NCBI GenBank assembly: GCA_021736985.1
Contig: JAIPEW010000026.1
Coordinates: forward strand, 1 to 40,253
Length of the DNA stretch: 40,253 nt
Direction of reading: 5' to 3'
Source of the DNA: Clostridiales bacterium
GTDB taxonomy: Bacteria > Bacillota > Desulfotomaculia > Desulfotomaculales > VENG01
Made by a program: the position numbers and the translations under genes
Notes under the pieces: model-generated
Told to the model about the DNA's origin: nothing
Seen by the model: only the letters and a program-made list of their open reading frames with translations
Database searches by the model: none
In this document: positions 39,809-40,253 of the stretch, one piece after another
Position numbering within the stretch: the first letter of the stretch is position 1
Layout of the letters: every line of letters begins with the position of its first letter

Positions 39809-39884
39809 ATACAGCAATGAATTATGTAAACATTAAAAAATATATCTTTCCAAAACTAACTGATATACCTGTTGTCATATATAG

Positions 39885-39909
39885 AAAACCCCTCGGTAAA
39901 TCCGAAGGG
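39885..39909 (-). terminator. rRNA operon terminator
   Basis: On the minus strand CCCTTCGG (39909-39902) pairs with CCGAGGGG (39896-39889), one wobble, with a 5-nt loop; TTTT follows at 39888-39885. It lies 13 nt beyond the 5S 3' end. Confidence 0.85.
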
Positions 39910-39921
39910 CTCCCAAAATAA

Positions 39922-40148
39922 GTCCGGCAACGACCTACTCTCCCAGGGGTAAACCCAAGTACCATCGGCACTGGTGAGCTTAACTTCCGTGTTCGGCATG
40001 GTTTGTACCAACACAGCTTTTTACAGCTTTCAACTCTGGCATATGCGAAAACTGCCAGGATGAATACTTGGATATATACCATTTCTATAAATAAGCTGGG
40101 GCTGGTACAAAAAAAACGGGTGTATCCCCACCGTTATGGTTACCGGAA
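39922..40148 (-). rRNA. 5S ribosomal RNA with a large internal insertion
   Basis: The 5' half (40148-40115) reads TTTCCGGTAACCATAACGG... to ACACCCGTT, and the 3' half (40001-39922) runs from CCATGCCGAACACGG through GAGTAGGTCG to GCCGGA. Both match bacterial 5S rRNA closely. Helix I pairs fully: TCCGGTAAC with GTTGCCGGA, one G-U. Between the halves, where relatives have just CC, about 113 nt are inserted. Removing them leaves ~115 nt, the normal 5S size, so the core is intact. Total length is ~227 nt. It lies 65 bp downstream of the 23S 3' end and is followed by a terminator. Confidence 0.88.
40002..40114 (-). other. Intervening/expansion segment within the 5S gene
   Basis: The inserted ~113 nt opens with TTTGTACCA (40111-40103) and closes with TGGTACAAA (40010-40002), a perfect 9-bp terminal stem. 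It extends inside with CAGCTT (40098-40093) against AAGCTG (40019-40014). An inner hairpin CTGGCA (40058-40053) / TGCCAG (40041-40036) has an 11-nt loop. AAAGCTGT occurs twice (40030-40023 and 40020-40013). No open frame or homing-endonuclease signature is visible. Exact borders may shift by 1-2 nt. Confidence 0.85.
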
Positions 40149-40213
40149 ACTATTAAACTTTTTAATACTCTCTCAAAACTGCACAGCGTATAGCAGGTTT
40201 ACTTTCGCCTTTT

Positions 40214-40253
40214 TGGTCAAGCCCTCGACCTATTAGTACCGGTCCGCTAAACG
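40214..40253 (-). rRNA. 23S ribosomal RNA, 3' end (partial)
   Basis: On the minus strand the sequence reads CGTTTAGCGGACCGGTACTA then ATAGGTCGAGGGCTTGACC, the conserved 3' terminus of bacterial 23S rRNA. The gene continues beyond the right edge. The spacer to the 5S gene (40149-40213) carries no tRNA. Confidence 0.9.

Follow-up and report, generated by a model that had tools for sequence, protein, structure and literature searches.

The window (the whole stretch of DNA analysed, 40,253 nt) ends inside a 23S rRNA gene, the 3' end of which (40215 to 40253) is followed on the same, minus, strand by a 66-nt spacer (40149 to 40214) and by a 5S rRNA gene in two parts. The 5' half of the gene (40115 to 40148, minus) comprises the 5' strand of helix I, loop A and the 5' strands of helices II and III, up to U35, and the 3' half (39922 to 40001, minus) runs from C37 to the 3' strand of helix I. 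Between them lies a loop C insert of 113 nt (40002 to 40114, minus), and behind the gene stands the intrinsic terminator of the operon (39883 to 39909, minus), with an 8-pair stem of -13.4 kcal/mol and a T tract. The 23S end was recognized by its identity to the corresponding stretch of a normal operon on another contig of the same genome (C54), while a longer homologous stretch on contig C65 matched the Rfam model RF02541 up to its last model position. The spacer was identical to that of the C54 operon as well; altogether, the 105 nt upstream of the 5S gene, including the 23S end, agreed with C54 at every position, and the first bases downstream were those common to the normal 5S genes.

The first-pass annotation had described a 5S rRNA gene with two conserved halves, interrupted in the helix III/loop C region by an insertion of about 113 nt, and comparison with the normal 5S of the same genome upheld this description. 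The core was 100% identical over 35 nt (40149 to 40115) and 87 nt (40001 to 39915), i.e., with 0 changes in 122 aligned nt. In E. coli numbering, which was assigned by hand via the RF00001 alignment of a normal 5S copy, the core is interrupted between U35 and C37, right after the last pair of helix III, and the core base C36, which is replaced by the insert, is the sole core difference from the normal gene. Helix I, said to be complementary across the two halves, paired with probabilities of 0.85 to 1.0 in the full 227-nt fold. The normal 105 nt upstream and the terminator provide the context of a functional 5S gene, with the operon promoter lying outside the contig, and the copy has neither the missing terminus or termini nor the position behind a terminator that characterize 5S pseudogenes. 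Judged by its sequence and surroundings, the locus is a genuine expanded 5S rRNA gene within a normal operon context.

The insert is predicted to fold as an arm of its own. Folded alone, it reached -37.9 kcal/mol compared to -20.1 ± 3.0 kcal/mol for dinucleotide shuffles (z = -5.89), and 0 of 200 shuffles were as good, in line with the independent hairpin that had been proposed. The perfect 9-nt complementary arms noted previously were found (UUUGUACCA at 40111 to 40103, pairing with UGGUACAAA at 40010 to 40002), and the stem extends through a G.U and a C-G pair to 11 pairs. Further inward follow stems of 6 and 7 pairs and then a three-way junction bearing two hairpins. Within the full 227-nt fold, the closing stem had pair probabilities of 0.88 to 1.0, its outermost U-A pair being the weakest (0.48). 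Since RNAfold recovered the canonical 5S interior poorly, also for the normal gene, the view that the core is undisturbed is based on a core sequence identical to that of normal 5S and on a hairpin that folds by itself, rather than on folding energies. The insertion has also set eight U residues directly behind a core hairpin (ACGG..CCGU), creating a terminator-like element within the gene (40109 to 40132, minus) with a weak stem of about -6 kcal/mol. With this hairpin and U8 in place, transcription of the 3' half could drop, and partial termination is possible.

At the gathering score, no Rfam match was obtained in the window. With a lax threshold, RF00001 gave 34.5 bits (cut-off, 38 bits) over 40028 to 39922, where the end of the insert was used as a false 5' strand. 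The expectation that covariance-model annotation would miss the gene was thus correct, and it is shown once more that such annotation misses expanded 5S genes, in this case with the 5' end misplaced inside the insert. Likewise, no Rfam model of a group I or group II intron, or of another catalogued self-splicing or mobile RNA, matched in the window.

Expanded 5S rRNAs were compiled by Stepanov and Fox (2021; PMC7812874), whose text reports 89 of them in 15 types with segments of 13 to 109 nt, ranks loop C positions 34 to 37 with those sites of the bacterial 50S subunit that are least obstructed, and mentions genomes in which normal and expanded 5S genes occur side by side. Their occurrence in some Clostridia, Halanaerobiales and haloarchaea, stated in the first-pass annotation, was confirmed. 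The window gene resembles the loop C (34 to 37) types given there for Thermacetogenium phaeum, Halobacteroides halobius, Halanaerobium sp. DL-01 and Lachnospiraceae COE1 in its site, its independent hairpin and its intact core, as well as in the coexistence with normal 5S that is found in some of those genomes. It differs from the published loop C types in the length of the insert (113 nt, compared to 13 to 109 nt) and in its branching at a three-way junction, whereas the published inserts are unbranched. Furthermore, the text of PMC7812874 does not name the order Desulfotomaculales for this site, and, apart from a 28-nt match, the sequence of the window insert was found in none of the other genomes searched.

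The expanded genes of Desulfallas, Desulfofarcimen and Desulfotomaculum (Peptococcaceae/Desulfotomaculales) belong to the same broad lineage. For this lineage (Peptococcaceae in the old sense), the text of PMC7812874 describes 5S remnants that lie behind operon terminators and bear near-identical inserts, a feature shared with the present genome; it also proposes that pseudogenes donated inserts, and doubts the function of several expanded genes. However, according to that text, the insertion sites in these genera are not the loop C site, and for several of them a clash with uL5/uL18 is predicted, whereas the window copy is expanded at the unobstructed loop C site and has normal operon flanks. 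The 5S rRNA of Halococcus morrhuae (108-nt insert) is similar in that a single structured insert nearly doubles the molecule; it differs in being archaeal, in its site (104.1/105), in being the only 5S type of the cell, and in having been seen by cryo-EM, in which the large insert was accommodated with the core undisturbed and was retained in ribosomes (PMC7530397). In the text of PMC7812874, insert retention is taken as confirmed for H. morrhuae and T. thermosaccharolyticum only, excision is named as possible, and no excised insert or two-piece 5S product is reported. A hairpin inserted into an rRNA stem or loop is also reminiscent of the intervening sequences of 23S rRNA, but those are excised, which the window insert may not be. 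With both core halves conserved, helix I closing, a recognized site (loop C, 34 to 37) and extensive internal pairing, the window gene agrees with the class of Stepanov and Fox in all features that sequence can reveal. It is a further example of this rare, already described kind of 5S rRNA, and probably a new structural type.

The other 5S copies of the draft genome (2.84 Mb in 65 contigs) were compared, as had been proposed. This revealed five normal 5S genes, each scoring 103 to 105 bits, and two relatives bearing an insert, namely, a decayed expanded copy (C17:231-456) and a remnant (C3:17000-17150). The C17 copy is located behind a normal 5S gene and its terminator, at a distance of about 110 nt; its identity to normal 5S was 97% in the 5' part and 87% in the 3' part, and its insert, at the same site, agreed with the window insert at 105 of 113 aligned positions. 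The C3 remnant directly follows the 3' end of a 16S gene and consists of a related insert (81/93 positions in agreement with the window insert) that runs into the final 58 nt of a 5S (93% identity), without any 5S 5' half. As neither is near-identical to the window insert, neither known remnant was a recent donor. A window copy that was untranscribed and gathering core mutations while every other 5S copy was normal had been named as grounds for rejecting the proposal; the remaining five full 5S genes did prove normal, but the mutations were found in the two siblings and not in the core of the window copy.

One fold was kept by all three inserts, with 99% of pair cells standard and a single C.C break, in C17, compared to 39 to 46% standard cells in a control in which the partners were slid by 1 to 3 columns. 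The stem changes among the three inserts were all one-sided, mostly to or from G.U, and no pair showed a double compensatory change across them. A test with random placement of the changes gave fractions of 0.18, 0.28 and 0.06 for the copies, which is weak evidence for preservation of the fold, structure statistics from three copies being weak in general. Over the 91 shared columns, 2 lineage-specific substitutions were counted in the window insert, 5 in C17 and 9 in C3. From these comparisons, we conclude that there appears to have been a single ancestral insertion, duplicated later, with two copies now decaying and the operon copy keeping a perfect core.

Some further observations concern the sibling copies. 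Among the specific substitutions of the decayed inserts, 8 of 14 were C to T on the RNA-like strand; the numbers are small, and the excess could reflect deamination of the non-template strand. At C3:17000-17463 (L010, L015), the 16S 3' end is followed by the insert and the 5S 3' end, and the 23S that would separate them is absent. The spacer on the 16S side, CTGTTTAGTTTTGAAAGA, resembles the 23S-5S spacer, CTGTGCAGTTTTGAGAGA, suggesting that the 23S gene was deleted by recombination between the two spacers. Whole-gene 16S and 23S models had no match in the draft, in which the rRNA is collapsed at contig ends.

A search for the loop C insert pattern (about 61 to 121 nt) identified this genome alone among 113 genomes of the order and gave no match beyond it in a 398-genome phylum sample; the search labelled class covered the same 113 genomes as that of the order, and the rarity beyond the order refers to these pattern searches in the two sets. 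By BLAST, the insert matched nothing in the order's other 112 genomes and had a single 28-nt match in the phylum sample (G345; E = 6e-4). In plasmids and phages, the insert had a chance-level 28-nt match or none, and the insert pattern had no match in viral contigs. A loose loop C pattern run over all genome contigs listed almost exclusively normal 5S genes that happened to have CACCYG upstream; once these were filtered out, at least three true loop C expansions were present among the matches listed, all in Oscillospiraceae MAGs (L036, L039 and L078).

These three gut or rumen loci (L036, around 215-330; L039, 155-267; L078, 478-593) are 5S remnants with GC-rich hairpin inserts of 113 to 115 nt, placed at the same loop C site and unlike the window insert in sequence. 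A normal 5S lies upstream of the remnant in L078 and in L039 (there partial, at the contig end), and one helix I strand has apparently been lost in each of the three. Within the set, the relative G017 has a 131-nt 5S (C54:126967-127097, minus), whose coordinates are those given for Desulfallas geothermicus DSM 3669 (NZ_FOYM01000008.1) in PMC7812874, suggesting that the order of the window is Desulfotomaculales. In another relative, G013, several 5S copies (loci L160, L161 and L162) have a common internal deletion around loop C, CCGATCTCGAACACGG, indicating that decay of 5S at loop C also proceeds by loss.

On balance, we favor the reading that the expanded 5S is the last gene of the rRNA operon, with a segment between 35 and 37, and that its transcript is expressed with the arm retained. 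The gene would be co-transcribed with 16S and 23S, helix I would form and be trimmed as for normal 5S, and the insert would extrude from loop C as a branched arm, at one of the central-protuberance sites that the text of PMC7812874 counts among the least hindered on the bacterial 50S. A minority of ribosomes would then carry the arm, up to the share of one in six full-core 5S genes. Such a gene would have originated in one insertion into an ancestral 5S gene and subsequent duplication, after which selection or gene conversion with the normal copies may have kept the core of the operon copy while the displaced copies decayed. The identical core (35/35 and 87/87), the normal flanks, the terminator and the stable fold of the insert argue for this reading, as do the fewest lineage-specific changes in the window insert, the pairing kept in C17 and C3, and the insert retention shown for H. 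morrhuae (PMC7530397) and, according to PMC7812874, T. thermosaccharolyticum. Against it count the five normal 5S genes, which make the expanded copy dispensable, the internal hairpin with U8, the replacement of C36, the weak three-copy statistics, and the doubts about function that PMC7812874 raises for several expanded 5S genes of this lineage.

The decay of the other two insert-bearing copies (87% and 93% core identity, one without the whole 5' half) and the terminator-like hairpin with U8 within the gene would also suit an early pseudogene, i.e., an operon 5S that was expanded, or recombined with a remnant, and is tolerated via the five normal genes, its product being lost by termination at U8 or by misassembly. 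Expanded genes mixed with remnants in this way, with pseudogenes as suggested donors, are described for Peptococcaceae in the text of PMC7812874. Against a pseudogene count the intact flanks, a core without a single change in 122 nt, the weakness of the terminator-like stem, and an insert that has diverged too far from each of the known remnants to have been copied from it recently; we regard this alternative as tenable but not likely. A further possibility is that the window copy is silent or poorly transcribed, with the five normal 5S genes supplying the ribosomes.

Removal of the insert appears improbable. An RNase III-like enzyme could cut out the hairpin at its long, near-perfect closing stem (11, then 6, then 7 pairs), which is akin to those of 23S intervening sequences, leaving a two-piece 5S kept together through helix I and the helices of the core, and PMC7812874 leaves room for excision. 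Yet the text of that paper has no excised insert or two-piece 5S, the insert was retained in both experimentally examined cases, and a two-piece 5S would need to assemble on uL5/uL18 out of two fragments, one about 34 nt and the other about 80 nt long. We give very little credence to a small mobile (MITE-like) or self-splicing element targeting 5S, for which the near-palindromic ends, the three copies and the similar-length inserts at the same site in rumen Oscillospiraceae remnants might speak, as each of the three copies is attached to 5S sequence and none stands free, no target duplication was seen, and the searches gave no substantial phage, plasmid or viral-contig match and no Rfam intron match. 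Finally, an assembly artefact joining unrelated 5S halves is hardly credible: the contig does end 105 nt upstream, in a collapsed repeat, and the whole-gene models find no 16S or 23S in the draft, but two independent contigs, diverged in sequence, share the insert and its position, and a related insert is present on another contig.

If the arm is retained as we favor, an expressed expanded 5S would mark a distinct ribosome sub-population with an extra central-protuberance arm, and a loop C module of about 113 nt may recur in distant Clostridia, given the inserts of 113 to 115 nt at the same site in rumen Oscillospiraceae; both are put forward as speculation that we think unlikely to hold. 5S rRNA is generally regarded as nearly invariant. 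This one genome, in which normal 5S genes occur together with an expanded 5S that is intact and two versions of it that are decaying, offers a natural test of a functional ribosome variant versus tolerated damage, and because the intact copy can be set against the decaying ones, the question of whether the expansion is functional or neutral is directly testable.
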